DNA from: a virus
Virus record (IMG/VR): IMGVR_UViG_3300021197_001846
Coordinates: 1 to 36,445 of that record
Strand: one strand, 5' to 3'
Length of the DNA: 36,445 nt
Below, one piece after another: positions 4,459 through 28,511 of this stretch. The stretch's first letter is position 1. Every line of letters starts with the position of its first letter. A program made the translations under genes and the position numbers. The notes below the pieces were generated by a model, which was not told where the DNA came from, searched no databases, and saw nothing but the letters and a program-made list of their open reading frames with translations.

Positions 4459-4466
4459 TATTTAAT
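4459..4466 (-). promoter_or_regulatory. Late promoter box ATTAAATA
   Basis: Minus strand ATTAAATA followed by AGTATGT and ATG 4451. It abuts the stop codon of the reductase gene. It is the only late box among the sugar genes. Confidence 0.55.
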
Positions 4467-5317
4467 CAAGCAGTAATGGCACCAAGAGCCTTTTTAAGTG
4501 CTTCTGCTTCAGTAGAGAGAATATAACCATACTCTTCTTTAACCTTTGTAGTATCTAGAATACAATTAGATCTACCAGCAGCAAGATCAAGCTCTTCAAT
4601 ATCAACCCAAGACCAGTTAAGGTTCTCAAGCTCGAAGCTTCTCATAAGATCAATCACTCCTCCTGTATCGAGAGGCTCTGGATTGGTAAAGTGAACAACA
4701 TCATGACCTATACGACCTTCTTCAACAATACACTCAATAAAGTCTACAAGCTCAGGAATATAAGTCTTTGAATTGACTGCGGCAATAAGGTTATCATACT
4801 TATGAATCTTAGTAAGGTAAGACCTATCGTGAAGTATATCACAGAAGGGCATACGAATACGAATAGTGATACCATTATCACTTACCGACTCAAATGCATG
4901 CTTACTTGTAGAGTAGAAGGATGAATCAGGATTGAATACTCCGAAGTTAGGCTCATCAATCTCACTCCATGCCTTATCGTAGCCGGTAAAGATACAACCA
5001 GAAGTAATATGAATAGGTTGTACATGAAGCTCTCTACAGATAGTATTGAACATCAATGGAACTTGAACGTTATACTTCCAACAAGCTTCTTTCTCTTCTT
5101 CGGCTTGATCTACATTAGGTCGACCAGTAAAGCCTTGAGCGTTGATAAGGTAGTCAACTCTATTCTCCTTCATGTAATCACGAAGGTAGTACTCATCGGT
5201 ATAATCTAGCTCAGCCTTAGATAGAGCTTCTACATCAATACTAGGATTCAGAGCCATGTTAGCGTAGACATAGCTACCGACATAACCTTTACCTAAGATA
5301 AGTACTTTAGTTTTCAT
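4466..5317 (-). CDS. dTDP-4-dehydrorhamnose reductase-like (RmlD-type SDR)
   Basis: 283 aa, close to the usual RmlD length (about 290). LILGKGYVGSYVY (residues 6-18) holds the GxGxxG dinucleotide-binding motif. ITSGCIFTGYD (104-114) corresponds to the active-site segment before the YxxxK motif, seen here as YSTSK (Y135, K139). NAQGFTGRPNVDQAE (59-73) matches the family's NxAAYTxVDxAE region. RmlD reduces a 4-keto-6-deoxy sugar nucleotide with NAD(P)H. With the dehydratase 2 kb away it could complete a 6-deoxyhexose route, though no 3,5-epimerase (RmlC) is in the window. The start is 6 nt after a TACAAT box. Confidence 0.75.
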   Translation of the reverse strand: MKTKVLILGKGYVGSYVYANMALNPSIDVEALSKAELDYTDEYYLRDYMKENRVDYLINAQGFTGRPNVDQAEEEKEACWKYNVQVPLMFNTICRELHVQPIHITSGCIFTGYDKAWSEIDEPNFGVFNPDSSFYSTSKHAFESVSDNGITIRIRMPFCDILHDRSYLTKIHKYDNLIAAVNSKTYIPELVDFIECIVEEGRIGHDVVHFTNPEPLDTGGVIDLMRSFELENLNWSWVDIEELDLAAGRSNCILDTTKVKEEYGYILSTEAEALKKALGAITA

Positions 5318-5323
5318 ATACGA

Positions 5324-5351
5324 ATTGTATACTAGTCAAGAGCTTTATCAA
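5324..5351 (-). promoter_or_regulatory. Sigma70-like promoter (TTGATA-N16-TACAAT)
   Basis: Minus strand TTGATA, 16 nt, TACAAT, 6 nt, ATG 5317. It lies over the 3' end of the gene at 5332-5535. TATAC/GTATA arms around the -10 form a short inverted repeat (5319-5333). Confidence 0.45.
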
Positions 5352-5535
5352 TAGCCTCGATAACCTTTTCAGCTGCATCAGCGATTTCAACTTCAAGGTC
5401 TTCAACCATCTCGTTTACAATCTCATCAAGCTCATAGTCATCTGTAGTGGCTATTACATCACGAACTTCATACAAGGCATCAAGTGTTGAATCAATTTTA
5501 TTTTCAAACTTATTAATTAAGGTGCTTTTCTTCAT
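5332..5535 (-). CDS. Small acidic helical protein
   Basis: 67 aa, mostly Glu, Asp, Ala and Ile with an early Lys patch (MKKSTLINKFENKIDSTLDA). The rest reads as two amphipathic helices (VNEMVEDLEVEIADAAEKVI), probably a helical hairpin or coiled coil. I recognise no family. A perfect TATAAATA late box lies 16 nt before the ATG, so it should be made late and may be a minor virion or assembly protein. The leader between box and ATG shows no clear Shine-Dalgarno sequence. Confidence 0.6.
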   Translation of the reverse strand: MKKSTLINKFENKIDSTLDALYEVRDVIATTDDYELDEIVNEMVEDLEVEIADAAEKVIEAIDKALD

Positions 5536-5551
5536 TAGTCTATTACGGTTT

Positions 5552-5559
5552 TATTTATA
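5552..5559 (-). promoter_or_regulatory. Late promoter box TATAAATA
   Basis: Minus strand TATAAATA, identical to the T4 late -10 consensus, 16 nt before ATG 5535. It is one of only four late boxes whose spacing clearly leaves a leader or departs from 5-6 nt. Confidence 0.65.
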
Positions 5560-5579
5560 CTCCATTCGCTCTTAATCAA

Positions 5580-6284: not shown

Positions 6285-6299
6285 TATTTTATTAATTTA

Positions 6300-6328
6300 A
6301 TTATAGCTATGTTCCTTACAATAATCAA
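6300..6328 (-). promoter_or_regulatory. Combined sigma70-like and AAGGAAC promoter
   Basis: Minus strand TTGATT, 17 nt, TATAAT. Inside the 17-nt spacer lies AAGGAAC followed by N5 (ATAGC), so AAGGAAC-N5-TATAAT occupies 6300-6317. It is the only copy combining both elements and shows that AAGGAAC sits between -35 and -10. Confidence 0.6.
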
Positions 6329-6338
6329 CTGCTTTTTG

Positions 6339-6346
6339 ATTAAATA
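6339..6346 (+). promoter_or_regulatory. Late promoter box ATTAAATA
   Basis: ATTAAATA followed by AAGGT and ATG 6352 (5-nt gap). It lies back to back with the nuclease promoter, so 6285-6351 is a divergent early/late control region. Confidence 0.65.
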
Positions 6347-6351
6347 AAGGT

Positions 6352-8157
6352 ATGGCAGGTATTAAAATCAGTGAACTTCCGGAAGCTAGTAGCATATGTG
6401 GCAACGAGCTTGTACCAATCGTGCAGGGTAGCTGTACTAAATATGTGAGTGCTTCTGCGATCGGTGGCACCGCTGAAGGTAACATTACAGGTATAACAAC
6501 AGGTAGCGGCCTTGTTGGTGGTGGTACATCAGGCAGCATTAACATTGCAATGGATAACAATTGCTTTGATGCTTTTAATGGTGCACATTCTACTCTTGCA
6601 GCAACTAGTGCTTGCTGGGATGGTAACTACACTACAGTACAATCCAATAGTGGTAGCTGGGATCAAAGCTCATGTGCTGGTCTTAATTGTGTAGGTGATG
6701 TTGAAGGTATTTGTGTTGGAGTAGGAATAACAGGTGGTGGTTCGTCTGGAACAGTTTGTGTATGTCTTGATGCTGTTTGCACTACAGCATGGAATGGTAC
6801 AACTACAACAGTAGCAGCCAATAGTGCTTCATGGGGCTCAGGTGGTGGAGGTAGCAGCTACGACCAAGATCTTAACACAACAGATTCACCTGAGTTCGTC
6901 GCGTTGTCTGCGCAAGGTGCTATATTCGACACGCCAACTGTCGGAAGTCAATACGCGTTAGAGGTGCAAACTAATGGCGCTAGGAATTTCTCTGTCGATG
7001 GATTTGGAGTTGCTGAGAGCAAAACTATTCTCCCTCGATCCGCTGACGCATTTAATATCGGCGCTTCTAGTCAACGATGGGCAGGGGTATTCACAGGAGA
7101 TGTAGACGCAACAGGAAACATTCTCTCTGGTGGAGTTAACATCGATCAGCTATTCGATACTGATAGTGCTGAAGTTGTTACCGTTGCTGATGTATCAGGT
7201 ACAAGTTCAACATTCGGTAGCTCAGTTTTATATTTTAGTGCGGATGCTGTTACATATGGTCCTGTTGAAGCTTCCGTTCAAGGTAACTATTATAAGCCAA
7301 CTTCTGGTAATTCTACTGATGAGCTTTCAGTTGCTTTCTATTCTGATGCGGATGAGATTGAAATTAAGATTGAGCGCTCTCAATCATCCATTCAGTTTTA
7401 TGTTGACGATGTTCCAGTTCATGAGTTTGCTGTTGCTGGTTACAGTAACAGACTTCTTAAGCTAAGTCATACTACTGCTAAGGTTCGTAAATATGAGATT
7501 CGTGGTAAGAGTTATGGCTTCGGTGGTGTTTATACTAATACAAGTGTTAGTGACTATCAGGTATGGCCTTATGAGACAAGAAGAGAACGTCCATTGCTTC
7601 TAGTTATGACCGACTCTTTTGGTACTGCAGTTAATAGTACATATGGTGTTAGCTTCGTAGAGAAGTTAGCTGATTTGCTTGATATGGATGTTCATTCTGA
7701 TTCTCTTAACTCATCTGGTTGGTCAAGTACTGGTAGTAGTGCTACAACAGATAGAGCGGCTAACCAAATTGTACTTACTCGTACCCCAGCTGTAATCTTA
7801 GCTTGCTTAGGCTATAATGATAAATCTTCCCCTAACCAGACTAATATCGAAGCAGGTATTAACAATTGGCACTCTACTGTAACTGGTACATTTGGTTCAG
7901 CAGCAGTTATGCTTGCAAGTCCATGGACTCCTGTAGGTGTTGAGAGTAACTTAACAACAGTATCCGGATATATTCAAGGTCGTGCAACAGCTCTTGGAGC
8001 AGACTTCATTGATATAAATGGAGTTGTTACAGCAAACAATCAAGCTGCATATACAAGTAGTGACAATACGCACCCTACAGCAGCTGGTCATGATTATCTT
8101 GCACGCCGTTTACAAGCACTAATGTTACGTACTAATAACGTACCAACTACTTACTAG
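6352..8157 (+). CDS. Tail fibre protein with C-terminal SGNH/GDSL esterase domain
   Basis: 601 aa. The N-terminus (MAGIKISELPEASSICGNEL) is the attachment-type start seen in many marine phage fibres. Residues about 43-165 contain a Gly-rich segment in two diverged copies and ten cysteines (16-143). Residues about 178-265 form a fibre stalk module. From about 413 an SGNH hydrolase domain follows: block I TDSFG with nucleophile Ser422, block II Gly456, block III GYND with Asn489, and block V DNTHP with Asp571 and His574. All four signature residues are present. The likely role is receptor binding plus removal of acyl groups from a surface polysaccharide. A late box stands 5 nt before the ATG. 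Confidence 0.85.
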   Translation: MAGIKISELPEASSICGNELVPIVQGSCTKYVSASAIGGTAEGNITGITTGSGLVGGGTSGSINIAMDNNCFDAFNGAHSTLAATSACWDGNYTTVQSNSGSWDQSSCAGLNCVGDVEGICVGVGITGGGSSGTVCVCLDAVCTTAWNGTTTTVAANSASWGSGGGGSSYDQDLNTTDSPEFVALSAQGAIFDTPTVGSQYALEVQTNGARNFSVDGFGVAESKTILPRSADAFNIGASSQRWAGVFTGDVDATGNILSGGVNIDQLFDTDSAEVVTVADVSGTSSTFGSSVLYFSADAVTYGPVEASVQGNYYKPTSGNSTDELSVAFYSDADEIEIKIERSQSSIQFYVDDVPVHEFAVAGYSNRLLKLSHTTAKVRKYEIRGKSYGFGGVYTNTSVSDYQVWPYETRRERPLLLVMTDSFGTAVNSTYGVSFVEKLADLLDMDVHSDSLNSSGWSSTGSSATTDRAANQIVLTRTPAVILACLGYNDKSSPNQTNIEAGINNWHSTVTGTFGSAAVMLASPWTPVGVESNLTTVSGYIQGRATALGADFIDINGVVTANNQAAYTSSDNTHPTAAGHDYLARRLQALMLRTNNVPTTY

Positions 8158-8161
8158 TGAG

Positions 8162-9981: not shown

Positions 9982-10319
9982 TACTCAGCCTTTCTTTGAA
10001 TCTTACCTGCAGGGCGACCTTCTTCATCCTCGAACATTACAATCTCAACATCAGAGTTACCGATGCCGTTTGTTTCTCCTGGCTTAAACTCCATACCGTA
10101 CATCTGAAGAGCACTAATAAGAGGCTGACCTGCTAGAGTAATAGGTGCACCATTATGCATACAGTTTCTAACATGAGGGCATTTATGCTTATACTCTTTG
10201 CGTAGTAGATTCTCATGCTTACGACCGGTTCTCATGATGCTCTTACCACCTTGCTTAACGGAAACAGCATTAGAATTCATCATGTTATCACCATTGTAAT
10301 ACTCTCGGAATGTCTGCAT
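9981..10319 (-). CDS. Hypothetical late protein with Cys/His cluster
   Basis: 112 aa from ATG 10319. A longer reading to 10364 is rejected because it would run through the late box. The N-terminus MQTFREYYNGDN resembles the short aromatic N-termini of other late proteins here (MKTFKEFF at 28132). The central HKCPHVRNCMH has two Cys and three His and could bind a metal. SDVEIVMFEDEEGRPAGKI near the end looks like a beta hairpin. I recognise no family. It is the first gene of a two-gene late unit with the possible neck protein, so a head or neck role is plausible. Confidence 0.6.
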   Translation of the reverse strand: MQTFREYYNGDNMMNSNAVSVKQGGKSIMRTGRKHENLLRKEYKHKCPHVRNCMHNGAPITLAGQPLISALQMYGMEFKPGETNGIGNSDVEIVMFEDEEGRPAGKIQRKAE

Positions 10320-10324
10320 ATATA

Positions 10325-10332
10325 TATTTATG
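10325..10332 (-). promoter_or_regulatory. Late promoter box CATAAATA
   Basis: Minus strand CATAAATA, TATAT, ATG 10319 (5-nt gap). It lies just downstream of the terminator of the preceding minus-strand gene, so this is an independent unit. Confidence 0.65.
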
Positions 10333-10401: not shown

Positions 10402-10944
10402 TTAACCTGCTTTAACTTCTTTGTTCTTAGGAGTAACTTTAGTAGTTGGAGCTTCAAGCTTCGCGTTAACCTTTTGGTCACCTACGTGCTTATCACCAAG
10501 CTTGGACTGATCAGCGGACTTACCACCGTCAGCAGTACCTTTGCCTTCACCACCGAGACCTTCTGGAGAGCCAACTTTGTTGTTCTCACCCATGTCAACA
10601 TGTGTAGTGTGTGCTTTGTACTCACCTTCGTTATCTTCTTCAGCGTGCTCTTCGTCACCGTGAACGGCGCAAGAACCATCTTCTTCAGCGTCAGCGTCTT
10701 CGTCAGTTTCTTCTTCACCCATTGCAGCTTGAAGAAGGTCGCAAAGTGTCTTTGCAAGCTCTTTATCAAGAGTAACGGTTACTTCACCTTCTTCGCTAGC
10801 ATCGTCGTCGCCTTCTTCGCCGAGTTCAGCGTCAGGAGTTGCGTCTTCGATACCAAGAGCGTTAAGGTCGTCTTGTTCCTCCATACCAAAGTCTTCGGAA
10901 ATAACTTTAGCAAAGAGTTCATCAAATGCGGATTTTTTGGCCAT
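10402..10944 (-). CDS. In-frame internal isoform of the acidic protein (predicted)
   Basis: 180 aa from ATG 10944, sharing frame and stop with the 282-aa gene. The minus strand reads AAGGAGG, then CATAAATA, ACTAT, ATG. Box, 5-nt spacing and the MAKK start all match independent late genes in the window. A short protein identical to the C-terminal two thirds is therefore predicted, comparable to lambda Nu3 nested within gene C. The product has not been shown; the evidence is only sequence layout. Confidence 0.45.
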   Translation of the reverse strand: MAKKSAFDELFAKVISEDFGMEEQDDLNALGIEDATPDAELGEEGDDDASEEGEVTVTLDKELAKTLCDLLQAAMGEEETDEDADAEEDGSCAVHGDEEHAEEDNEGEYKAHTTHVDMGENNKVGSPEGLGGEGKGTADGGKSADQSKLGDKHVGDQKVNAKLEAPTTKVTPKNKEVKAG

Positions 10945-11250
10945 ATAGTTATTTATGCCTCCTTGTGCATCTTTCAATGCGTTTTCTTCATCTTCTTCAG
11001 AAATAGTTACTTCTTCAGTGGTCTCTTCATCCTCTTCTTTTACTTCTTGAACTTCATTAGCTGTAGCACAATCAACTTCTTTAGGAGCTTCACAGTCTAC
11101 ATCACAGTCGCCACCATCTTCAAGAGGAGCTTCACCTACAGTCATGTCTTTATCACCAACTGTCATATCATTCTTCTCAGAAACTACAACCTCTTCACCG
11201 AGCTTGCTATAAACGTCACCAAGATCTTTAAGGTCTTTTTTCTTAGCCAT
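10402..11250 (-). CDS. Very acidic protein, candidate prohead core/scaffold, with internal start
   Basis: 282 aa, dominated by Glu, Asp, Gly and Lys. The N-terminus is MAKKKDLKDLGDVYSKLGEE. At residue 103 the frame contains a second N-terminus-like sequence, MAKKSAFDELFAKVISEDFG, preceded by its own late box. The rest alternates acidic runs with one ordered-looking helix (TVTLDKELAKTLCDLLQAAM, about 158-177) and ends in a Lys-rich tail (TTKVTPKNKEVKAG). Such a composition fits a scaffold, a head core or a disordered virion protein; no homology is certain. A perfect TATAAATA lies 5 nt before the ATG, and a strong terminator follows. It is divergent from the terminase. Confidence 0.6.
   Translation of the reverse strand: MAKKKDLKDLGDVYSKLGEEVVVSEKNDMTVGDKDMTVGEAPLEDGGDCDVDCEAPKEVDCATANEVQEVKEEDEETTEEVTISEEDEENALKDAQGGINNYMAKKSAFDELFAKVISEDFGMEEQDDLNALGIEDATPDAELGEEGDDDASEEGEVTVTLDKELAKTLCDLLQAAMGEEETDEDADAEEDGSCAVHGDEEHAEEDNEGEYKAHTTHVDMGENNKVGSPEGLGGEGKGTADGGKSADQSKLGDKHVGDQKVNAKLEAPTTKVTPKNKEVKAG
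10950..10957 (-). promoter_or_regulatory. Internal late promoter box CATAAATA
   Basis: Minus strand CATAAATA inside the acidic-protein gene, 5 nt before the in-frame ATG at 10944. Confidence 0.5.
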
Positions 11251-11255
11251 ACAAT

Positions 11256-11263
11256 TATTTATA
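11256..11263 (-). promoter_or_regulatory. Late promoter box TATAAATA
   Basis: Minus strand TATAAATA, ATTGT, ATG 11250. It matches the T4 late consensus and has the standard 5-nt gap. Confidence 0.7.
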
Positions 11264-11310: not shown

Positions 11311-11322
11311 ATTAAATAAATA
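11311..11322 (+). promoter_or_regulatory. Late promoter box ATTAAATAAATA (double)
   Basis: Two overlapping late boxes; the second (AATAAATA, 11315-11322) lies 6 nt before ATG 11329 of the terminase. Confidence 0.6.
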
Positions 11323-11328
11323 CTGACT

Positions 11329-13032
11329 ATGGCTGATAAAAACGATGGTAGTTACTATATGGGTAACGAGAACTTACCTAACAGAAACTGGAAAGGTGAG
11401 TATACTCCGGAGAAGATAGCTGATCTTAAGAAGGCAAAGAAGAATATTCTATACTTTGCTGAGAACTTCTTCTATATTGTTAGTTTGGATCATGGTAAGC
11501 AGAAGATTAAGCTTTACCCGGCACAGAAGAGAGCATTAAGAAACATGCGTGATAATAGATTCTATATTCTATTAGCTTCTCGTCAGATTGGTAAGTCTAC
11601 TCTTATGACAATCTACCTTCTATGGCAAGCATGCTTCCAGAAAGATCAGCGCATCCTTCTTGTAGCGAACACAGAAGCTACTGCTATTGAGATCTTCTCT
11701 CGTGTTAGAATGGCTTATGAGGAACTTCCTAACTGGCTTAAGCCCCCTGTAAAAGAGTATGCTAAGACATCTATGACTCTTGAGAATGGATCTCGTATTG
11801 GTATTACAACTACAACCGGTACAGCTGCTCGTGGTCAGTCCGTTAACTGTCTTGTTATTGATGAGATGGCTTTCATTGAGAACCATTTGGTTGATGAGTT
11901 CTGGAAGTCAGTCTATCCTATTATCTCCTCATCTAAGAAATCTAAAGCATTCATTTGTTCTACTGCTAATGGTACACAGAACCTCTTCTATAAGATTTAT
12001 AATGAGGCAGAGACTAATCCTGATAGTGCTTGGGACTGTGGTAAGATTATGTGGAATGAGGTTCCTGGTCGTGATGAAAAATGGGCTGCTGATACTAGAG
12101 CATCTATTGGTTCGGAAGAGGCTTGGCGACAGGAGTTCTGCTGTGAGTGGATTAACTCTGGTGAGTCTTCTCTTGATGATGAGCTCTATGAGAAGATGGA
12201 AAAGACTATATGTGATCCTAAAGTAGTGCTTGATGATGGTTGCTATAAGATTTGGGAAGAGGCTGACTCATCTAGAATTTATGCTGCTGGTGTTGATACA
12301 GCTGAAGGTGTCGGAAAGGATAGCTCTGTAGTTCAGGTATTGGATGTAACAGATCCTGCTGAAGTTAGACAGGTAGCAGTATATAAGAATAATAAAATCT
12401 CTCCGCTTGAGTTTAGTAATAAGGTTCATCAGATACTTCGTAACTATGGCTCGCCTCTAGCTCTTATTGAGCGTAACAATTGCGGTGCACAAGTAGTAGA
12501 TAGATTGCTACATGATATGGGCTATCCTAAACTTGTTAGTTATGGTAATGCTAAAGCACATCGTAAGAATAGAATGTATGGTATGATTGCTCATACTAAT
12601 ACTAAGCATAAAGGTATCATGAACATGCGCTATTGGATGAATGATCTACACTCTATTGTTATGCGTGACCAAGACACCTTAGATGAGTTTAGAGACTTTG
12701 TTCGTTATCCTAATGGTACATGGAAAGCTCAGAAAGGTAAGCATGATGATATGGTCATGGCTATCATGTATGCATATTATGTTCTTGATAATGATATTGC
12801 TGAGCAGTACTTTGAGATCATTGAGAAAGATGATACAGGTAGACCTAAGATTATTGAGCCTATGGACTTTGGTTTGCAGCTCTTTGAAGACCCGACATCC
12901 ATTTATAATAATGAGAATATGGGCGGTGGTAGTCCTGATCTTAATCCTGTCTATTGGGGTATGAGTGATGGTAATGAAGAGATGGGTGATGATTATTATG
13001 ACCTAATTGATGCTGGATTCACTCCACTATAG
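11329..13032 (+). CDS. 17: Terminase large subunit (gp17-like)
   Basis: 567 aa; T4 gp17 is 610. It is the ATPase-nuclease motor that packages DNA into proheads. Walker A is ASRQIGKST (83-91), Walker B CLVIDE (174-179) with catalytic Glu179, and the coupling motif is STANG (211-215). The C-terminal RNase H-like nuclease has its acidic residues at GVDTAEG (Asp323), ALIERNN (Glu381) and KHDDMVMA (Asp473/474), matching the three metal-binding acids of gp17. Both domains look intact. It opens the plus-strand late block behind its own late box, and the next gene's box overlaps just beyond its stop. Confidence 0.97.
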   Translation: MADKNDGSYYMGNENLPNRNWKGEYTPEKIADLKKAKKNILYFAENFFYIVSLDHGKQKIKLYPAQKRALRNMRDNRFYILLASRQIGKSTLMTIYLLWQACFQKDQRILLVANTEATAIEIFSRVRMAYEELPNWLKPPVKEYAKTSMTLENGSRIGITTTTGTAARGQSVNCLVIDEMAFIENHLVDEFWKSVYPIISSSKKSKAFICSTANGTQNLFYKIYNEAETNPDSAWDCGKIMWNEVPGRDEKWAADTRASIGSEEAWRQEFCCEWINSGESSLDDELYEKMEKTICDPKVVLDDGCYKIWEEADSSRIYAAGVDTAEGVGKDSSVVQVLDVTDPAEVRQVAVYKNNKISPLEFSNKVHQILRNYGSPLALIERNNCGAQVVDRLLHDMGYPKLVSYGNAKAHRKNRMYGMIAHTNTKHKGIMNMRYWMNDLHSIVMRDQDTLDEFRDFVRYPNGTWKAQKGKHDDMVMAIMYAYYVLDNDIAEQYFEIIEKDDTGRPKIIEPMDFGLQLFEDPTSIYNNENMGGGSPDLNPVYWGMSDGNEEMGDDYYDLIDAGFTPL

Positions 13033-13040
13033 ATTAAATA
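13033..13040 (+). promoter_or_regulatory. Late promoter box ATTAAATA
   Basis: ATTAAATA beginning at the base after the terminase stop, then AGTAT and ATG 13046 (5-nt gap). It decides the start of the next gene. Confidence 0.65.
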
Positions 13041-13045
13041 AGTAT

Positions 13046-13618
13046 ATGGCTGCTAATACCAACAATCAATCCTTCCTTAATAAGAGTAGAGCAGATAAGT
13101 TTAAGCTTGTCTTCTCTCTACCTCCTGCATTGAGAGAGATTGACTCTAAGAATAGTAGAAGTACTTTTAATGTTAATCAGAATGCTATGCAGTTCTCTGT
13201 ATATGGTTCTGTTGTACCTCAGATTACTGTACCGGCAATTGAGATTGGCTATGGTGGTTCTAATCTATTTAACTCTTCACATGCTAAGGCTCCATACGAT
13301 CCTGTTACAGTAGACTTTACTATTGATAATGGATACAATAACTACTGGGTAGTTTATAAGTGGCTTGATCTTATGCATGATGAGAAGGAAGGTGTTTTAG
13401 ATGCTAGTAATATTGTTACTGATGAAGCATTTAGTCAGTATCAAACTGATATGACTCTATATGGCTTGGATGAATATAATAAAGAACGTATTAAATTTAC
13501 GTATACAAAAGCCTTTCCAATTTCTGTAGGTGCAATTAATTACAGCTATAGAGATGAAGACGAGATTGCAAGTTCTCTGTCATTTGTCTACTCTCAAATA
13601 CATACAGAATTATTGTAG
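13046..13618 (+). CDS. Tail-tube-like structural protein
   Basis: 190 aa from ATG 13046; an upstream in-frame ATG at 13007 is rejected because it overlaps the terminase and the late box. The sequence DKFKLVFSLPPALREI, then VPQITVPAIEIGYGGSN, then PVTVDFTIDNGYNNYWVVYKW has the strand order of phage tail-tube folds. The last part, KFTYTKAFPISVGAINYSY, matches the closing strands. It sits between terminase and sheath, where T4 has no gene. It may be the tube or a tube terminator or initiator; the 16843 gene looks more like gp19 itself. Confidence 0.6.
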   Translation: MAANTNNQSFLNKSRADKFKLVFSLPPALREIDSKNSRSTFNVNQNAMQFSVYGSVVPQITVPAIEIGYGGSNLFNSSHAKAPYDPVTVDFTIDNGYNNYWVVYKWLDLMHDEKEGVLDASNIVTDEAFSQYQTDMTLYGLDEYNKERIKFTYTKAFPISVGAINYSYRDEDEIASSLSFVYSQIHTELL

Positions 13619-13644: not shown

Positions 13645-13652
13645 CATAAATA
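13645..13652 (+). promoter_or_regulatory. Late promoter box CATAAATA
   Basis: CATAAATA, TATGT, ATG 13658 (5-nt gap), in front of the sheath gene. Confidence 0.65.
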
Positions 13653-13657
13653 TATGT

Positions 13658-16064: not shown

Positions 16065-16072
16065 CATAAATA
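16065..16072 (+). promoter_or_regulatory. Late promoter box CATAAATA
   Basis: CATAAATA, ATGTT, ATG 16078 (5-nt gap). Confidence 0.65.
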
Positions 16073-16077
16073 ATGTT

Positions 16078-16826: not shown

Positions 16827-16834
16827 CATAAATA
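16827..16834 (+). promoter_or_regulatory. Late promoter box CATAAATA
   Basis: CATAAATA, 8 nt, ATG 16843. The wider gap would leave about 2-3 untranslated bases. Confidence 0.6.
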
Positions 16835-16842
16835 ATAGAGTA

Positions 16843-17382
16843 ATGCCAGTAAACCAAAATATCCAAAACTTCTATCGTATCGCTGCTGATAAAGACTTCA
16901 GTCGTGACTTTCTTTTCCGCGTGACTCAGATGCAGTTACAAGGCGTACCTGCTCTTGAAGAGGGTGACCTTGTCTATGTTAAGACAGCTGAGCTTCCAGG
17001 CCGTACAATCGGTAACGTTGCTGTACCTTATATGGGTCTTAACTTGAATGTTCCTGGTGCTGTTACATATCCTGGTTCTGAGGGCTACAATCTTGACTTC
17101 TACCTTGATGGTGAGAGTTCACTTCGTAACTACTTTGAGACAGCTTCTCGCTCACTCTTTGATGATCAGACTTCTACTGGTGAGTATGGTACTCCGGATG
17201 ATGACTTCTTTATTCAACTCGCACAGCTCGACAAAGACCTTGAGCCAATTGCTGAGTATAAGCTTGTAGGAGCTTCTCTTCGTAATGTTGGTGGTATCGG
17301 TTATGATATTGCTGGTGGTACAGGTGCTACAGTAAGTATTAATGCTACTGTTTCTTACCACTTCTACACAAAAGAGCGTTAA
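16843..17382 (+). CDS. 19: Tail tube protein (gp19-like)
   Basis: 179 aa; T4 gp19 is 163. VKTAELPGRTIGNVAVPYMG (about 46-65), then GYNLDFYLDGESSLRNYFET (86-105) and AEYKLVGASLRNVGGIGYD near the C-terminus are the typical order of gp19-family tube proteins, ending in a strand (TVSYHFYTKE). It polymerises into the inner tail tube inside the sheath. The gene lies downstream of its own late box and directly before a second tube-like gene 5 nt away. Confidence 0.88.
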   Translation: MPVNQNIQNFYRIAADKDFSRDFLFRVTQMQLQGVPALEEGDLVYVKTAELPGRTIGNVAVPYMGLNLNVPGAVTYPGSEGYNLDFYLDGESSLRNYFETASRSLFDDQTSTGEYGTPDDDFFIQLAQLDKDLEPIAEYKLVGASLRNVGGIGYDIAGGTGATVSINATVSYHFYTKER

Positions 17383-18113: not shown

Positions 18114-18912
18114 TATTGAAGTAGACTTACCATCAGGTAAAACAGTTAGAGTTAGAGAGCTTAAGAACTCCGAGTATCTCACTATCATTAAGTTCGCACA
18201 GAATAAAGACTTTAAAGGTCTTGGCGACTTCTTCGACGCTCACTTCATAAGACCTGACTTAAATATAGTCGATAGAATATACCTTCTTATCTATCTTAGA
18301 ATGTCGTTTATCGAGCCTGATATTAATATGACTATTGATAATAAGTCTATTACTGTTAGTGTAGCTTCTATGCTTGATAAGATTGAGGAGAGTTATGTTG
18401 ATCTTGAAACTAAATTAGATGTAAATGGTATTGAGATTACTTTAGATCTACCATGTATAACTTATTACGACGCAGTAGATGATCTACTTATTGCTACAAT
18501 TAAGCATATACAGATTGGTAATGAATCAATTAACTATAATGAACTTGATGAAGAGGTGTGTGATGAGATATTGAGTAACCTACCATCTGCTGTATTTAAA
18601 CATGTTAATAGCTTCTTGCATACAATACAAGAGAACCTACTAAACGTTGATCTTATTGATGAGAATAAGTCAATAGGTCTTGAAGCAACTCGTATTAATC
18701 TATTATCAAATAATGTACTAGAGTTTATATCTAGCTTATACGGTACTGATCTGCAAGGCTTCTATACAATGATCTATTCTTTCCAGAATACAATTATGCC
18801 TGGCAGTAACTTATTCTTTGACATGTCACCTATTGAGACGCGTATCATTATGAAAGCTCATCAGAAAAGGGTTAAAGAGGAGAATGACCAGTTGAAAAAG
18901 AAGCAGCAGTAA
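18103..18912 (+). CDS. Baseplate hub assembly protein, gp26/gp51 family-like (A)
   Basis: 269 aa. The start EVDLPSGKTVRVRELKNSEY (about 6-25) and LNIVDRIYLLIYLRMSFIEPDI (about 54-75) match the layout of the T4 gp26/gp51 baseplate family: a beta start with a PSGK turn, then a helix with an LR pair. The C-terminal end is a charged helix (KAHQKRVKEENDQLKKK). In T4 this group helps assemble the central hub. It overlaps the previous gene by 11 nt and has the only strong Shine-Dalgarno sequence I see in the late block. The next gene shows the same pattern, so the two are probably paralogues. Confidence 0.55.
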   Translation: MEFSIEVDLPSGKTVRVRELKNSEYLTIIKFAQNKDFKGLGDFFDAHFIRPDLNIVDRIYLLIYLRMSFIEPDINMTIDNKSITVSVASMLDKIEESYVDLETKLDVNGIEITLDLPCITYYDAVDDLLIATIKHIQIGNESINYNELDEEVCDEILSNLPSAVFKHVNSFLHTIQENLLNVDLIDENKSIGLEATRINLLSNNVLEFISSLYGTDLQGFYTMIYSFQNTIMPGSNLFFDMSPIETRIIMKAHQKRVKEENDQLKKKQQ

Positions 18913-18919
18913 CTAAATA
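18912..18919 (+). promoter_or_regulatory. Late promoter box ACTAAATA
   Basis: ACTAAATA starting in the stop codon of the previous gene, then AGTGT and ATG 18925 (5-nt gap). Confidence 0.6.
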
Positions 18920-18924
18920 AGTGT

Positions 18925-19665
18925 ATGAGTTCGAATGCTAAAAGCTTCTTGAATAAGCTTAAGGATCTTAATGATGCTAATACTGTTACAGTTCAGATAC
19001 CTTCTACAGGTAAGAGTGCTGAGTTTAAACTTGCTAGTGTGATGCAGCAGAAAGACCTTATTCGTACAGCATTCGATGGGGTTGATGGTGTTATTACTAG
19101 AACAGCGGCTGCTAATGAAATTATACTCAATAATAGTGTTGATGATATTGAGTTTCTTATTATTGATAAGCCTGCTATTTTTATTGCTCTTCGTAAAGAG
19201 GCTATTGGCTCAAAGATTACAATCGAGGATAAAGAGTATGATCTTAATGATATTAAGCCTATTAAGAAGACAGATGTAAAGCTTAAACATACAGTCGAGC
19301 AGGATGGTATTGTAGTTGAACTTAAAGTACCAACCTTAGCTATCGATAGTGAAGTATCAAAGAAGCTAGCTAAAGAGTTTGCTAAGCTTACTACAACAGA
19401 AGATAAGATTAAGCAGAGTGTTGATGTTGTTGTTGCTTATGAATCAACTAAGTACATCGACACAATAACAGTTGATGAAGATGTTATTAGGTTTGAGGAC
19501 ATTAGTGTGCATGAGAGAAAGGATATTGTAAATCAATTACCTCTCACTGTCAACAATCTAATAGTCGATTATATTGGTGGTATTAAAGAGGCAACAGACA
19601 AAGCTATGACTGTTGCAGAGGAAGTAGTTGTAGAAATTGATGCTGGCTTCCTGTCTACTGATTAA
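18925..19665 (+). CDS. Baseplate hub protein, gp26/gp51 family-like (B)
   Basis: 246 aa; T4 gp51 is 249 and gp26 is 208. VTVQIPSTGKSAEFKLASVM (about 21-40), then QQKDLIRTAFDG and KPAIFIALRKEAIGSKI (about 88-104), fit the T4 baseplate hub family: PS-x-G turn, QQK-D, and a later LR helix. A predicted helical end with VNQLPLTVNNLIVDYIG mirrors LSNLPSAVFKHVN in the neighbouring gene, supporting a shared fold. It probably acts in hub assembly before the tape measure gene that follows. The late box 5 nt upstream fixes the start. Confidence 0.55.
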   Translation: MSSNAKSFLNKLKDLNDANTVTVQIPSTGKSAEFKLASVMQQKDLIRTAFDGVDGVITRTAAANEIILNNSVDDIEFLIIDKPAIFIALRKEAIGSKITIEDKEYDLNDIKPIKKTDVKLKHTVEQDGIVVELKVPTLAIDSEVSKKLAKEFAKLTTTEDKIKQSVDVVVAYESTKYIDTITVDEDVIRFEDISVHERKDIVNQLPLTVNNLIVDYIGGIKEATDKAMTVAEEVVVEIDAGFLSTD

Positions 19666-19668
19666 ATA
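19661..19668 (+). promoter_or_regulatory. Late promoter box ATTAAATA
   Basis: ATTAAATA overlapping the previous stop, then ATAAT and GTG 19674. The standard 5-nt gap is what selects the GTG start. Confidence 0.6.
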
Positions 19669-19673
19669 ATAAT

Positions 19674-21356
19674 GTGGCTGAAGATTCAACTAACCCATTT
19701 GCCAGTATATTAGGTGCCCTCTCAAGTAAGGGTGGCCGTAAAGGCGTGGTTAAAGATAGTGACGGTAAAGTAGCCCCACACTTAACTCCTGCCGAACAGG
19801 CTCGTTACGAGAAGATCTTCGGTATAATGAAGAAGGTGGTCAACCCAGGACCTGAAACTGGTAAGCTTGATAATAAGGCAAGTAAAGTTGGAAGTACAGA
19901 AGCAATGCAAAAGGTTGCTGAGAAGGGTGGAAGTAGTAAAGATTTTGAAATGCCTGGTCTGGGTGCTCTTGCTGCAATTGGTGGTGCAGCTGCTATTATT
20001 GGTGCTGCACTCACTACAATGAGTGAAGATTTCATAGAGAAGATTGAAGGCTATGCTACCTCCTTTATTGAGTTTGGTGACAATGCAGGTGATGAGTTTG
20101 GTAAGCTTGGTGTTATGGCAGCAAAGCTGGCAAAGTTTCTACCTATTAAGTTACTAAAGGGATTACCACTTATTGGTGCGTTATTTAACTTTGGATTTGC
20201 ATTTAGCCATTTTAAGAAGGGTGAATGGTTTGATGGTGGTTGGGAACTCGTATCTGGTTTAATCAACTTCTTACCAGGTGGTGCGTTTATATCCCCGTTA
20301 ATGGATGGTTATAAAATCTATGCTGAAGTACTTGCCAACAAAGAGGAAGCAGAAACTGGTAAGAAGCCAACATTCGCAAATATACTAGGACGACAGTTAA
20401 AGCAGCTTGGTACATATGTTATGGACCAGATTGCGGCTGGTAAAGTTCCTATTCTTAGTACATTCTTTAAGTTCGGTGAAGGTATTGGTCTTATGATCGG
20501 TGGTGATCTAGATGGTGGTTTAGAGGCTTGGAGTCACATTCTTCCTAGTCTATTAGGTGGTAAAGATTCACCAGTTTATAAATATGTTTCTCAAGGTTTG
20601 GGAATCATGTGGGAATTGACAAAGGATGGTGCTGGTGTTGCAATGGAAAAGGCTGGTGAATGGGCTGGTAATGCATGGGGTTGGATAACAAGTTTTCTTG
20701 AACCAGTTGGTGAAGTGCTAAGTGGCTTCTTTGATGGTATAGCTAATTGGTTTAATGGTGCAGTTAACGGAGCTATTGATGGTATTAATAAGTTTCTACC
20801 AGGTGATTGGCAGATACCTAAGTTTGGAGAAAGTGGACCATCTGTTGCAGAACAACGTGCAGAGATGGATAAACGAGCTTCCGGTCGTAAGGCTTTTATT
20901 GATTCTTATAGAGCTCGTGTTGGTGAAGAAGCCTTTGAACAAGGTAGAGCTGCTGCGAAGGCTTCAGGGAAGATGAATATTGATTACATTAATCAAATAA
21001 TTGCTGATGAACAGGCATTCCAAGCAGGAAATCAAAGTGATTGGATAAAGGGCCAACTTGCTGGTAAAACAAATGCCGAGATGGGATACCAAAACCCATC
21101 TATTAAGGATGGTATTGTTCATCAGAATGGTAGAGCAACTCGTATTGATGGTAATGATGCCGGTCTCTTTGCTAAAGCAGGAGGTCCAATTGATAAGATG
21201 CTTGATCAAAACTCTGCGGTAATGAAGTCCATTCAGAGTATTAACACACAACAACTTAATGTATTAGTAGAGATTCGTGAAGGCATTAAATCTCTTAGCC
21301 AGAGTGGTGGCTTATCTTTTAGTAATACATCTTTAACCCAGGAATTTTTTGAATAA
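19674..21356 (+). CDS. Tail tape measure / baseplate hub protein (gp29-like)
   Basis: 560 aa with a GTG start; T4 gp29 is 590. The ATG at 19672 is out of frame, and the GTG is 5 nt after a late box. After a polar N-terminus come hydrophobic Ala/Gly-rich helices (GALAAIGGAAAIIGAAL, about 97-113; LKGLPLIGALFNFGFAF, about 159-175) and a Trp/Gly-rich amphipathic region to about 380, typical of tape measure proteins that are ejected or span the membrane. The last 50 residues form a coiled-coil-like helix (QNSAVMKSIQSINTQQLN). Its place before the gp48-like gene repeats the T4 order 29-48. It should set tail length. Confidence 0.75.
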   Translation: MAEDSTNPFASILGALSSKGGRKGVVKDSDGKVAPHLTPAEQARYEKIFGIMKKVVNPGPETGKLDNKASKVGSTEAMQKVAEKGGSSKDFEMPGLGALAAIGGAAAIIGAALTTMSEDFIEKIEGYATSFIEFGDNAGDEFGKLGVMAAKLAKFLPIKLLKGLPLIGALFNFGFAFSHFKKGEWFDGGWELVSGLINFLPGGAFISPLMDGYKIYAEVLANKEEAETGKKPTFANILGRQLKQLGTYVMDQIAAGKVPILSTFFKFGEGIGLMIGGDLDGGLEAWSHILPSLLGGKDSPVYKYVSQGLGIMWELTKDGAGVAMEKAGEWAGNAWGWITSFLEPVGEVLSGFFDGIANWFNGAVNGAIDGINKFLPGDWQIPKFGESGPSVAEQRAEMDKRASGRKAFIDSYRARVGEEAFEQGRAAAKASGKMNIDYINQIIADEQAFQAGNQSDWIKGQLAGKTNAEMGYQNPSIKDGIVHQNGRATRIDGNDAGLFAKAGGPIDKMLDQNSAVMKSIQSINTQQLNVLVEIREGIKSLSQSGGLSFSNTSLTQEFFE

Positions 21357-25287: not shown

Positions 25288-25787
25288 ATATCAATAACGT
25301 CTTCACCCTTTTTATCAGCTTCTGGCTCAGGAGCCTTCAACATGGCCTCCATAAGCTCTTCACGAGACATTACAAGCTTTGTCTGATTATCAGCTAGGTT
25401 GAGTTGCTTCTTAGAGTCAATATCCATCTCCTTGAGCTCTTTACGTGCTTCATTATTAGCTTTGTTAGCATGAATCTTCTGCATTGTCTCAATTGAGCTA
25501 TTTGCAGATCTCATAAGCTCAGCCAAGGAAGCAACATCTCTGTTCTCTGGTGCAGATGAGATATAGTCTTTAACATTATCAACAGCATCTAGAGTAGTAT
25601 CAATAAGCTTAGCAGTCTTCTTAATAAGATACTCTTCAAGCTCTTCAACTTCAGGAATCTCTTCTTTAGACTTCTCTTGCCTAGTAATGGAGTGATGTTG
25701 TGTAGTCAATTGAGATAGGATGTCATCAACTGCACCATCAACTTCATTACCTCCATTAGGGTCAAATGCTGGATCATACTTTTCCAT
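25284..25787 (-). CDS. Possible terminase small subunit (gp16-like)
   Basis: 167 aa; T4 gp16 is 164. The protein is almost all helical: LEEYLIKKTAKLIDTTLDAV, then NRDVASLAELMRSANSSIE (residues about 83-101) and a helix ending in TKLVMSREELMEAMLKA. A helical core with a coiled coil and a short acidic tail (KKGEDVIDI) is what small terminases of this group look like, but there is no diagnostic motif. A scaffold or other helical assembly protein is possible. The start at 25787 is 5 nt after a late box; ATGs at 25793 and 25820 are less likely. Its stop overlaps that of the M15 gene. Confidence 0.4.
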   Translation of the reverse strand: MEKYDPAFDPNGGNEVDGAVDDILSQLTTQHHSITRQEKSKEEIPEVEELEEYLIKKTAKLIDTTLDAVDNVKDYISSAPENRDVASLAELMRSANSSIETMQKIHANKANNEARKELKEMDIDSKKQLNLADNQTKLVMSREELMEAMLKAPEPEADKKGEDVIDI

Positions 25788-25792
25788 ATACA

Positions 25793-25800
25793 TATTTAAT
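25793..25800 (-). promoter_or_regulatory. Late promoter box ATTAAATA
   Basis: Minus strand ATTAAATA, TGTAT, ATG 25787 (5-nt gap). Confidence 0.6.
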
Positions 25801-25827
25801 CTACAAACATTACTTTGCAACCTTTAG

Positions 25828-25855
25828 TTGATTATTGCCATTCTTATGCCATAAT
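25828..25855 (+). promoter_or_regulatory. Sigma70-like promoter (TTGATT-N16-CATAAT)
   Basis: AGTTGATTATTG, 16 nt between hexamers, CATAAT, 8 nt, ATG 25864. It is divergent from the late box at 25793. Confidence 0.5.
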
Positions 25856-25863
25856 ATGATTAT

Positions 25864-26286
25864 ATGTTACTACAATTTGAAAAGACTCATGTAGACGCTG
25901 TGCTACCTGGTAAGAATCATGATAGTGATACTGGTATGGATGTTACCTGTATTGAGGACTTTACTATTCCAGCTAACGGCTCTGCTGTAGTTGGTGTTGG
26001 ACTTAAGTTTGCCTTTATTCAGCCTGGATATTGGGTTAAGGTTGAAGGACGTTCTGGTCTTGGCTTTAAGCATGGTATTATGCCTCATCCTGGTATCATT
26101 GATAGTGGCTATCGTGGTGATGCTGGCGTTAAGCTTTATAACCTGACTGATAAAGATTACGAAGGTAAGGCTGGTGACCGTATTGCTCAGTTTGTTGTAT
26201 ATACTAACCATGATGTTATTGTTACTGAAGGTGAAGTAGTTGACTCTGATAGAGGTGAGAAGGGCTTCGGATCATCTGGTAAGTAA
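25864..26286 (+). CDS. dut: dUTP diphosphatase (dUTPase)
   Basis: 140 aa, the normal length of a trimeric dUTPase subunit. All five motifs are present: DTGMDV (22-27), GRSG (62-65), GIIDSGYRGD (77-86, catalytic Asp80 and uracil-stacking Tyr83), GDRIAQ (104-109) and RGEKGFGSSG (130-139). It hydrolyses dUTP to dUMP and pyrophosphate, keeping uracil out of phage DNA and feeding dTMP synthesis. It has a host-type promoter and is followed by the clamp loader, so these two form an early or middle replication pair between tail genes. Confidence 0.95.
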   Translation: MLLQFEKTHVDAVLPGKNHDSDTGMDVTCIEDFTIPANGSAVVGVGLKFAFIQPGYWVKVEGRSGLGFKHGIMPHPGIIDSGYRGDAGVKLYNLTDKDYEGKAGDRIAQFVVYTNHDVIVTEGEVVDSDRGEKGFGSSGK

Positions 26287-26302
26287 GGAACACTTGTATA
26301 AT
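26285..26302 (+). promoter_or_regulatory. AAGGAAC-N5-TATAAT promoter motif, copy 5
   Basis: AAGGAAC merging with the dut stop, ACTTG, TATAAT, then 5 nt to ATG 26308. It is the only plus-strand copy. Confidence 0.6.
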
Positions 26303-26307
26303 TAGTT

Positions 26308-27234
26308 ATGGTAGATTTTGATAAGATTTGGGTTGAGAAGTATCGTCCTGCTAAGCTAGATGATCTTATTCTCGACGAAGGTTCTCTTAGAGTTGTTAGT
26401 CAGTTTAAGGATGAGATTCCTAACTTGCTATTCGTAGGAAGTCCTGGTACCGGTAAGACTACTCTTGCTCGTATCATTGTTAATGATATTCTAGGATGCA
26501 ACTTCCTATACATTAATGCTTCTGATGAGTCTGGTATTGATGTCATTAGACATAACATTACTAACTTCGCTCAGACCAAGTCATTTGATGGTGGTATTAA
26601 GGTAGTAGTTCTAGATGAGGCTGATGGACTCACCCCTCAGGCACAGGCTGCGCTACGCAATACTATGGAGACGTACGCTAAGTACTGTCGCTTTATTCTT
26701 ACTGCTAACTACAAGCATAAGATTATTCCAGCTCTTCAGTCAAGATGTCAATCAATCGATCTTAAACCTGAGATCAAGCAAGCAGCTAAACGTTGCTTCA
26801 ATATATTAAAAACAGAAAACGTAACAGTAAGTGATGAACAGAAAATTAAATTTGGTCAGTTGGTTAAAAGAACATTCCCTGACCTCCGAAAGACTATCAA
26901 CGAGCTCCAAAAGTCGGTTGTTGATGGGGAGTTGTATATTGATAGCAGCGGGAGTGACAGTGAACTTCTTAAGGCAGTCACGGAAGGACTCAAAGAAGAC
27001 TCGATTAAGGTAAGAAGATATCTTATCGAGAATGAAGATCGCTTCCAAGGTGACTATGATACTCTTCTCGCTAACCTACTTGACTACCTTTATGAGCAGC
27101 CTATTGATGAGTTCAAGAAGAAGCAGATGATTACTATCATTGCTGATCATTTATATAAGTCTGCCTTTATCGTCGATAAAGAAATCAATGCTTTTGCTTG
27201 TATAGTTGCTTTAGAATTAGCTCTTAAAGCATAA
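26308..27234 (+). CDS. 44: Sliding clamp loader subunit (gp44-like AAA+ ATPase)
   Basis: 308 aa; T4 gp44 is 319. WVEKYRPAKLDDLIL (8-22) is the typical start of clamp loader subunits. Walker A is GSPGTGKTT (44-52), Walker B VLDEAD (101-106), and the arginine finger is in SRCQ (145-148). It loads the gp45 sliding clamp onto primed DNA with ATP. The C-terminal third is the helical collar domain. In T4 it works with gp62, whose gene normally follows; here no such gene follows within the window, and a late gene begins 8 nt downstream. Confidence 0.93.
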   Translation: MVDFDKIWVEKYRPAKLDDLILDEGSLRVVSQFKDEIPNLLFVGSPGTGKTTLARIIVNDILGCNFLYINASDESGIDVIRHNITNFAQTKSFDGGIKVVVLDEADGLTPQAQAALRNTMETYAKYCRFILTANYKHKIIPALQSRCQSIDLKPEIKQAAKRCFNILKTENVTVSDEQKIKFGQLVKRTFPDLRKTINELQKSVVDGELYIDSSGSDSELLKAVTEGLKEDSIKVRRYLIENEDRFQGDYDTLLANLLDYLYEQPIDEFKKKQMITIIADHLYKSAFIVDKEINAFACIVALELALKA

Positions 27235-27237
27235 ATA
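27230..27237 (+). promoter_or_regulatory. Late promoter box CATAAATA
   Basis: CATAAATA overlapping the clamp loader stop codon, TATAC, ATG 27243 (5-nt gap). Confidence 0.6.
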
Positions 27238-27242
27238 TATAC

Positions 27243-28130
27243 ATGAAGTTTGACGACTCCTTCGATAAGTACATGAGCCTCTATAATGAGGCAAAGGAAG
27301 CTCCAAAAGGTAAGCATTACGATAAAGCTGGCAGACTCCAGTCAGGTGATGCTGATTCAGATGGTCGAGGCGGTCCTAAGTTCCGTTCAGATCCTACTTA
27401 TAAGAATCCTAACGAAAACGAAGAAGGTAAGAAGAAAAAGGGTCTTACAGGTCTTGCTTTGCTTGCTCAACAAGAGCAGGGTGAAAAGATTGGTAGAGAT
27501 GGTAAAGGTTTAGGTCCTGACTCTAGAGAAGAGAAGTCAGAAGATAATGAAACAGCTAAGAAAGTTGCTAAGGTAGCTGGTAAAGCTATTAAAGGTACTG
27601 CTAAGTTGGCTGGTAAGTCTGCATTAGCTTTTGCTGATTACATGACTGGTGGTGATGTAAGTAAGGGTATTGATTTTGTTAAGAGTTCATATGAAGACTG
27701 CGAGACATGTGGTTGTGAAGAGAAGCCAGAGTATGGTCACTTAGATGATACTTACTCTAACTACATTGATCAGTATAAAGAGCCTGCTGAAGATGCTGAA
27801 GGTAAGCGTTGTGACTATGTTCCTTGTGAAGATGGTGAAGCAGGTTGTGAGTGTGGTAATTGCCCTGATTGTATGCCCGCAGAAGATGGTGAGAGAGTAG
27901 ACAAAGATCGTATGAAGTGTAATAAGCCTCGTCGTACATCTGGTGGTTCTAAGAAGTTTGTTGTTAAGGCTTGTGAGAATGGTAAAGAGAAGGTTGTTCG
28001 CTTTGGTGATCCAAACATGAAGATCAAGAAGAGCAATCCCAAGCGTCGTAAGTCTTTCAGAGCACGTCATAAGTGCGACCAGAAGAAGAGTAAGTTCTCT
28101 GCTGGTTACTGGAGCTGTAAGAAGTGGTAA
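27243..28130 (+). CDS. Cys-rich late protein with conserved basic C-terminal module
   Basis: 295 aa. The N-terminus MKFDDSFDKYMSLYNEAKEA is followed by a charged linker, an Ala/Lys/Gly helix (AKKVAKVAGKAIKGTAKLAG, about 104-123), and a Cys cluster (CETCGCEE, then CDYVPCEDGEAGCECGNCPDC, ten Cys within about 60 residues) that could bind zinc. The last 60 residues, with KEKVVRFGDP, RRKSFRARHKCD and AGYWSCKKW, form a basic module that I have met in other marine T4-like phage proteins of unknown function. A late box 5 nt before the ATG suggests a virion or DNA-associated role. No function is claimed. Confidence 0.65.
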   Translation: MKFDDSFDKYMSLYNEAKEAPKGKHYDKAGRLQSGDADSDGRGGPKFRSDPTYKNPNENEEGKKKKGLTGLALLAQQEQGEKIGRDGKGLGPDSREEKSEDNETAKKVAKVAGKAIKGTAKLAGKSALAFADYMTGGDVSKGIDFVKSSYEDCETCGCEEKPEYGHLDDTYSNYIDQYKEPAEDAEGKRCDYVPCEDGEAGCECGNCPDCMPAEDGERVDKDRMKCNKPRRTSGGSKKFVVKACENGKEKVVRFGDPNMKIKKSNPKRRKSFRARHKCDQKKSKFSAGYWSCKKW

Positions 28131-28131
28131 T

Positions 28132-28458
28132 ATGAAAACCTTTAAAGAGTTCTTTACTGAAGGCCTGTGGGCTAATATCAACGCTAAGAAGAAGCGTGGA
28201 GGTAAGAGTGCTCGTAAAGGTAGTAAAGCCTATAAGGCAGCTAAGAAAGCTGGTGATAAGCTTAATAAGAGTAAGCACTCTGATGAAGAGTGTCATTGCG
28301 ATGAGGATGCTGAGAGTAGTCCAGGTCGTGTAAAGCGTGCAGGTGCTAGTTGTAGAGGATCTGTAACAGAGCTACGTAAGAGAGCTAAGAAGTACGGTGG
28401 TGAGAAAGGTAAAATGTATCACTGGTGTGCTAATATGAAGTCTGGGAAGAAGAAGTAA
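28132..28458 (+). CDS. Small basic protein with Cys/His C-terminal module
   Basis: 108 aa, strongly basic. MKTFKEFFTEGLWANINAKK is a start common to small proteins of marine T4-like phages, followed by Lys/Ser-rich sequence, a short acidic Cys/His patch (SDEECHCDED) and a C-terminal module with SPGRVKRAGASCRGSVTELR and MYHWCANMKSGKKK. The Cys and His could bind a metal and the Lys content suits nucleic-acid contact, but function is unknown. It starts 1 nt after the previous stop, so the two genes are probably co-expressed and may work together. Confidence 0.65.
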   Translation: MKTFKEFFTEGLWANINAKKKRGGKSARKGSKAYKAAKKAGDKLNKSKHSDEECHCDEDAESSPGRVKRAGASCRGSVTELRKRAKKYGGEKGKMYHWCANMKSGKKK

Positions 28459-28465
28459 ATAAAGT

Positions 28466-28511
28466 ATACACTTCTATTGTAATCTACCGGTAGGTGATTA
28501 AATAAGTGTAT
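28466..28511. repeat. Centred dyad: 8-bp arms around a 10-bp palindrome
   Basis: ATACACTT, N10, CTACCGGTAG, N10, AAGTGTAT. The outer arms are exact reverse complements and equidistant from the centre of the perfect inner palindrome. The right arm overlaps the late box end and start codon of the 28510 gene. It could be an operator or recombination site; chance is not excluded. Confidence 0.4.
28497..28504 (+). promoter_or_regulatory. Late promoter box ATTAAATA
   Basis: ATTAAATA, AGTGT, ATG 28510 (5-nt gap), inside the dyad at 28466-28511. Confidence 0.6.

Follow-up and report, generated by a model that had tools for sequence, protein, structure and literature searches.

Late boxes and start codons in the window

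The DNA analysed here is IMG/VR virus record IMGVR_UViG_3300021197_001846, a fragment of 36,445 bases, which as a whole is called the window below. It encodes a terminase, a tail sheath, proteins of the tail tube family, a baseplate hub, clamp-loader and dUTPase genes and nucleotide-sugar genes; no Rfam family was found in the window, and a search for tRNAs in its lineage returned none. Sequences with the TAAATA core of the T4 late promoter (late boxes) occur on both strands before head and tail genes. The subject of this study is the fixed distance between these boxes and the start codons, which points to mRNAs that very probably begin at the start codon.

The gap was defined as the number of nucleotides between the last base of the box and the first base of the start codon. 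Twelve TAAATA boxes of the window lie at a gap of exactly 5 from the start of a long open reading frame (ORF) (Table 1). The arrangement TAAATA-N5-RTG was observed 15 times against 1.5 expected, and the maximum among 100 shuffles was 5. Of the 15 hexamers that share this composition, only TAAATA exceeded 6 at any single gap, reaching 12 at gap 5. A first-pass annotation, made from the letters of the window, had counted 17 boxes and 13 genes with gap 5. The 17 were a selection that included the gap-5 cases, since HHTAAATA (H, A/C/T) matches the window 35 times, the remaining matches lying within coding sequence or distant from starts. Twelve of the 13 genes were recovered, and the terminase was removed because its box is conserved in the closest orthologues at gap 10. 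The GTG start chosen at 19674 on the basis of its box is shared by the orthologues.

Conservation of the gap in related contigs

Relatives of the window were linked to it through the terminase, which is 54-99% identical to that of 80 metagenomic contigs; its identity to cultured phages is at most about 36% (30-36% for cultured T4-type phages). In the terminase tree, the window lineage together with L197, a T4-type jumbo phage, is split from the cultured T4-type phages with a support of 100/99. By the tree and the identities, the lineage belongs to the T4 superfamily outside the Near-, Cyano- and Exo-T4 groups, in a comparison where RM378 forms a very long branch and from which the Lake Pavin Far-T4 contigs are absent. 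Far-T4 phages have been described as uncultured aquatic T4-type phages with predicted Bacteroidetes hosts (PMC4360716, PMC7198788).

The first-pass annotation had proposed counting box-to-start distances in related phages. This count was made over the 80 contigs, ten longer relatives and 693 non-redundant unambiguous starts, and it gave a sharp peak at gap 5. The 80 contigs contained 423 boxes at gap 5; gap 6 accounted for 70, and every other gap for 1-34. None of the contigs was without a box at gap 5 or 6. The distribution peaked at 5 in each of the ten longer relatives. For the non-redundant starts, 116 were at gap 5 (shuffles reach 8), 35 at gap 6 and 40 at gaps 7-9 together. Comparison of orthologues showed that operon-internal genes, which abut or overlap their upstream neighbour, are mostly without a box.

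This registration of the promoter on the start codon was not found in the cultured T4-type phages examined. T4, Syn9 and phiM9 have no peak at gap 5, and single cases were found in Mosig (1) and Melnitz (1), with three in HTVC008M. The box of T4, Syn9 and other cultured T4-type phages is mostly located 14-40 nt from the AUG, the T4 boxes clustering at 14-32.

Position of the late box relative to +1 and late transcription machinery

T4-type late transcription is a textbook system, and its late mRNAs carry leaders with a Shine-Dalgarno (SD) sequence. Numbering from -13 has been reported for the T4 late box (PMC2988020), so the geometry used in the first-pass annotation was right. With its last base at -6, the box is separated from +1 by five bases, which means that a gap of 5 places +1 on the A of the AUG. 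At the position expected to be +1, six bases after TATAAATA, 83% of the T4 boxes and 100% of the Melnitz boxes have a purine. In the lineage, the base at -1 is a pyrimidine in 109 of the 116 non-redundant box genes (94%), compared with 274 of 507 other genes, and a pyrimidine before the AUG is expected of a transcription start site.

The TATAAATA-like box is the sole core element and occupies the -10 position. Its TAAATA core is preceded by two loosely specified bases (HH), with a preference for A/T at -12 and -13. Further upstream, A or T is present at -28 and -27 in 0.91 and 0.90 of the box genes, compared with 0.70 and 0.74 of the others, and a smaller rise is seen at -18 to -16. In Flavobacterium johnsoniae, a main feature of promoters is the presence of AT-rich motifs centred at -18 and -28, counted from predicted transcription starts (PMC6847099). 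The AT steps of the box genes at -28/-27 and near -18 match this numbering, which supports both the location of +1 on the A and a polymerase of the Bacteroidota type.

A homologue of the late sigma factor gp55 was found on a 110-kb relative, G002 (E 4.8e-18; phrog_234, E 5.5e-23), which also carries 21 boxes at gap 5. Homologues of gp55 were also identified in hundreds of viral contigs. G002 and G003 gave weak matches to gp45, the clamp protein (E ~2e-6).

As a separate observation, about half of the box genes carry GCN (Ala) directly after the start codon (G 0.57 at +4 and C 0.61 at +5), unlike other genes. This bias could be related to N-terminal processing or to a preference in the initial transcript.

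Proposed early and middle promoters

An unbiased 5-mer scan of the genes without a late box revealed a peak of AGTTGATT at about 28-31 nt from the AUG and of AAGGAAC at 16-17 nt, each accompanied by TATAAT near the AUG. The early element TTGATT peaks at gaps 28-31, which is the -35 position. In a larger set of starts, TATAAT was found at gap 6 in 24 genes and at gap 7 in 21 (shuffles reach 8), and 22 of the 24 genes with gap 6 have a pyrimidine at -1. The -10 box of sigma-70 promoters ends at -7. Since the T4 late box ends at -6, gaps of 6-7 for TATAAT and 5 for the late box, as observed, are expected if transcription from both starts at the A of the AUG. Such concordance between the classes would be difficult to account for with boxes that act as translation signals. 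Restricting the arrangement to late genes, as was done initially, was thus too narrow, because early and middle promoters are likewise tied to the AUG.

Some middle activator or sigma factor may bind at the GGAAC element, which occupies -21 to -17. Within the window, the early/middle element AAGGAACTCTGATATAATTAGG is repeated before short genes, at 942-1209, upstream of 714 and at 26287-26302.

Table 1 Promoter-like elements of the window and their distance to the start codon
Element	Coordinates	Strand	Gap (nt)	Start codon and gene	Orthologues
Late box ATTAAATA	6339..6352	+	5	ATG of 6352-8157 (head-decoration-like / SGNH hydrolase)	gap 5 in 3/3
Late box CATAAATA	10319..10332	-	5	ATG 10319 (gene 10319-9981)	gap 5 in 13/14
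Internal late box CATAAATA	10944..10957	-	5	in-frame ATG 10944 inside ORF 11250-10402; predicted 180-aa C-terminal product	present (see text)
Late box TATAAATA	11250..11263	-	5	ATG 11250 (gene 11250-10402, acidic protein)	gap 5 in 22/24
Late box ATTAAATA	13033..13046	+	5	ATG 13046 (tail tube)	gap 5 in 25/29
Late box CATAAATA	13645..13658	+	5	ATG 13658 (tail sheath)	gap 5 in 31/31
Late box CATAAATA	16065..16078	+	5	ATG 16078	1/1
Late box ACTAAATA	18912..18925	+	5	ATG 18925 (baseplate hub family)	gap 5 in 12/14
Late box ATTAAATA	19661..19674	+	5	GTG 19674 (tape-measure-like)	gap 5 and GTG in 5/5
Late box ATTAAATA	25787..25800	-	5	ATG 25787	gap 5 in 3, gap 6 in 1
Late box CATAAATA	27230..27243	+	5	ATG 27243	3/3
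Late box ATTAAATA	28497..28510	+	5	ATG 28510	1/1
Late box	11311..11329	+	10	ATG 11329 (terminase large subunit), short leader	gap 10 in closest orthologues
Late box CATAAATA	16827..16843	+	8	ATG 16843 (tail tube family)	gap 5 in 11/13
Late box ATTAAATA	4451..4466	-	7	ATG 4451	gaps 7-9 in 8/8 relatives
Middle-type, GGAAC + TATAAT	1188..1209	-	16 and 5	ATG 1188; same at 936	
Middle-type, GGAAC + TATAAT	26287..26308	+	16 and 5	ATG 26308 (clamp loader)	
Early-type, TTGATT + CATAAT	25828..25864	+	30 and 8	ATG 25864 (dUTPase)	
Early-type, TTGATT + TAATAT	2941..2976	-	29 and 6	ATG 2941	
Early-type, TTGATT + CATAAT	1398..1432	-	28 and 6	ATG 1398	

Shine-Dalgarno motifs and the possible host

SD-like motifs precede 20 of 356 starts in the lineage, at or below background, compared with 125 of 234 in the cultured T4-type controls. 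A deficit confined to the box genes, which would separate leaderless from leadered genes, was considered and rejected, as the whole lineage is without SD. This absence is another Bacteroidota trait, and a Bacteroidota host is likely. However, the lineage starts show no upstream enrichment of TAnnTTTG, the Bacteroidota -7 element also known from F. johnsoniae, which speaks against a simple Bacteroidota story. Assignment of the host by the sugar epimerase carried by the phage was uninformative, because a homologue with 40-48% identity is present in nearly every genome sampled from the phylum and no contrast phylum was searched.

Probable leaderless transcription and alternative explanations

We consider it highly probable that the late boxes are T4-type promoters which start transcription on the A of the AUG (or the first base of the GTG) or within 1 nt of it, and that leaderless mRNA is made throughout the lineage, early and middle genes included. 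The leaderless late mRNAs suggested by the first-pass annotation are supported by the gap peak of the lineage and its conservation in orthologues, the gp55 and weak gp45 homologues in relatives, the pyrimidine at -1 and the absence of SD; the contrast with the cultured T4-type phages and the AT steps are further observations on this side. In the proposed mechanism, the host RNA polymerase with a gp55-like phage sigma factor would recognise the late boxes, and the sliding clamp would probably activate these promoters. The placement of the box would direct transcription from the first base of the AUG or GTG, or within 1 nt of it, to give a leaderless late mRNA. The early (TTGATT/TATAAT) and middle (GGAAC/TATAAT) promoters would follow the same rule, making leaderless mRNA the usual output, and each transcription unit would begin at a start codon. 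Promoterless genes that overlap or nearly touch an upstream stop codon would presumably be expressed by translational coupling. It is also possible, although we lean somewhat against it, that a T4-type lineage dropped its leaders genome-wide, perhaps in a Bacteroidota host with mostly leadered mRNAs, and that these phages may favour or alter initiation at 5'-terminal AUGs during infection.

Several points weigh against leaderless transcription. The mRNAs of F. johnsoniae, a possible model of the host phylum, are mostly leadered, with 87% of leaders longer than 10 nt (PMC6847099). For boxes located off the AUG, the T before the expected +1 is weaker (46%). The gp55 gene was located in the 110-kb relative and not in the window, which is a fragment. 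The same geometry leaves short leaders on some genes (5 nt for the terminase and about 2-4 nt for 4451, and longer ones for 6284 and 714). Finally, the start sites, the promoter role of the boxes, the role of the clamp and the use of 5'-terminal AUGs by host ribosomes are inferred from sequence alone.

Initiation a few nucleotides upstream or downstream of the T4 position would leave leaders of 1-5 nt, and the fixed gap would then be a product of genome compaction. The secondary peak at gap 6 (35 starts), the 40 starts at gaps 7-9 and the gap of 10 at the terminase agree with such leaders. However, compaction alone would produce a spread and not one dominant gap, and a pyrimidine at -1 followed by A at +1 suits initiation on the A. 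Moreover, the late and sigma-70 peaks differ (5 versus 6-7) just as their distances to +1 predict under the general sigma-70 numbering. We therefore regard these short leaders as an unlikely explanation of the gap.

Still less likely is that the box serves as a translation-initiation signal on leadered mRNA, an A/T-rich, Kozak-like element that replaces the SD in Bacteroidota and has no promoter role. Such a signal would fit a lineage without SD, and initiation in F. johnsoniae uses A-3 and A-6 (PMC6847099), the latter being the position where the box ends. On the other hand, box genes are not A-rich at -3 (A 0.37) and have T or C at -1 in 94% of cases, and operon-internal genes also need translation yet are mostly without a box. 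Furthermore, the far-upstream TTGATT and GGAAC elements keep a fixed distance to the same AUG, the steps in AT content at -28/-27 would lie beyond the zone of ribosome contact, and the hexamer is the T4 late core in a lineage that encodes a late sigma factor. Chance or composition, by which AT-rich intergenic sequence or upstream TAA stop codons would yield TAAATA near starts, was rejected with near certainty. In its favour, the box shares its TAA with the stop codon of the preceding gene in a few cases (19674, 27243). Against it, shuffles and same-composition hexamers do not reproduce the gap-5 peak, and boxes also occur at divergent and internal positions and are conserved across orthologues.

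Comparison with known systems

The lineage resembles the T4 late system (gp55/gp33/gp45; TATAAATA) in the TAAATA core, the gp55-family sigma factor of a relative and the weakly matching clamp homologues. It differs from T4 in the distance of the box from the AUG (5 nt instead of mostly 14-40 nt), in the lack of the SD that T4 carries in its leader, in the loose first two bases of the box (A/C/T) and in having steps in AT content at -28/-27 and near -18 that are missing in T4. In cellular genomes, genes without SD that have a -10-like signal some 12 bp before the start codon have been classed as leaderless (TA-led; Zheng et al. 2011, PMC3160421). The lineage has the same features, with TAAATA at -11 to -6, TATAAT at gaps 6-7 and no SD. 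However, TA-led genes of cells have the -10 box of sigma-70 as their signal, whereas the lineage uses a phage late-sigma box together with two further promoter classes. In the same survey, leaderless genes were reported for 1 of 37 Bacteroidetes/Chlorobi genomes (PMC3160421).

For the Far-T4 contigs of Roux et al. (2015), no T4 core transcription regulators were reported and promoters were not mentioned (PMC4360716). RM378, a Rhodothermus phage and the only cultured Far-T4 phage, has a box TATTTAA near the AUG, at gap 6 in 11 genes and at gaps 8-9 in 9, but it differs from the lineage in the box itself, in having many leadered genes and some SDs, and in a different sigma family (phrog_1740). 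The TATTTAA box of RM378 (L213-L215) appears to be a late promoter and is apparently undescribed. L197, from a Paludibacteraceae (Bacteroidota) metagenome-assembled genome, has a terminase that is sister to those of the lineage (100/99), a gp55 homologue and no SD. Its TATAAT is at gap 6 and GAACT at 16-17, as in the lineage, whereas its TAAATA peaks at 6-9 and not at 5. L197 and L205-L212 are on one contig of 375,692 bp (G013 contig 113), where promoters are locked to the AUG. Literature searches, with subscription journals outside their coverage, returned no prior report of leaderless T4-type late mRNAs or of Far-T4 promoters.

The lineage would use the same promoter type as T4 without a leader, and it is widespread in aquatic samples. 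The loss of the leader would explain how a T4-type phage could function in a host without SD initiation. With the gap rule, the start codons of these genomes can be assigned simply, GTG starts and those of nested genes among them, and the 5' ends of transcripts are predicted to the nucleotide. It also supplies several hundred natural candidate genes for the study of leaderless initiation, and three promoter classes for a lineage earlier described without recognised T4 transcription regulators.

A probable nested gene and exceptions to gap 5

The gene 11250-10402 has an internal late box before an in-frame ATG at 10944. TAAATA-N5-ATG was found at this internal position in 45 of 46 orthologue matches, several of them near-identical, and always in frame 0, with protein identities of 28-79%. 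Before the internal ATG, the codon used varies from Leu (TTA, CTA) to Ile (ATA), and TA-AAT-A is spelled every time. Its constancy despite the codon switch suggests selection on the DNA, and the gene probably gives both a long and a short protein.

A few genes depart from gap 5. For the terminase, the gap of 6 to an overlapping second TAAATA was rejected as accidental, since gap 10 is conserved in close relatives. This implies that the terminase, unlike the neighbouring genes, would have a conserved leader of 5 nt. Similarly, genes of the 4451 family would have a probable leader of 2-4 nt, whereas for the gene at 16843 most orthologues keep gap 5. Before ATG 18103 (18077-18103), ATTAAATACTCCTAGAGGAG contains a late-type box at gap 18 followed by a short palindrome, which is kept in some relatives and might form a hairpin or represent one of the rare SD-like sites.

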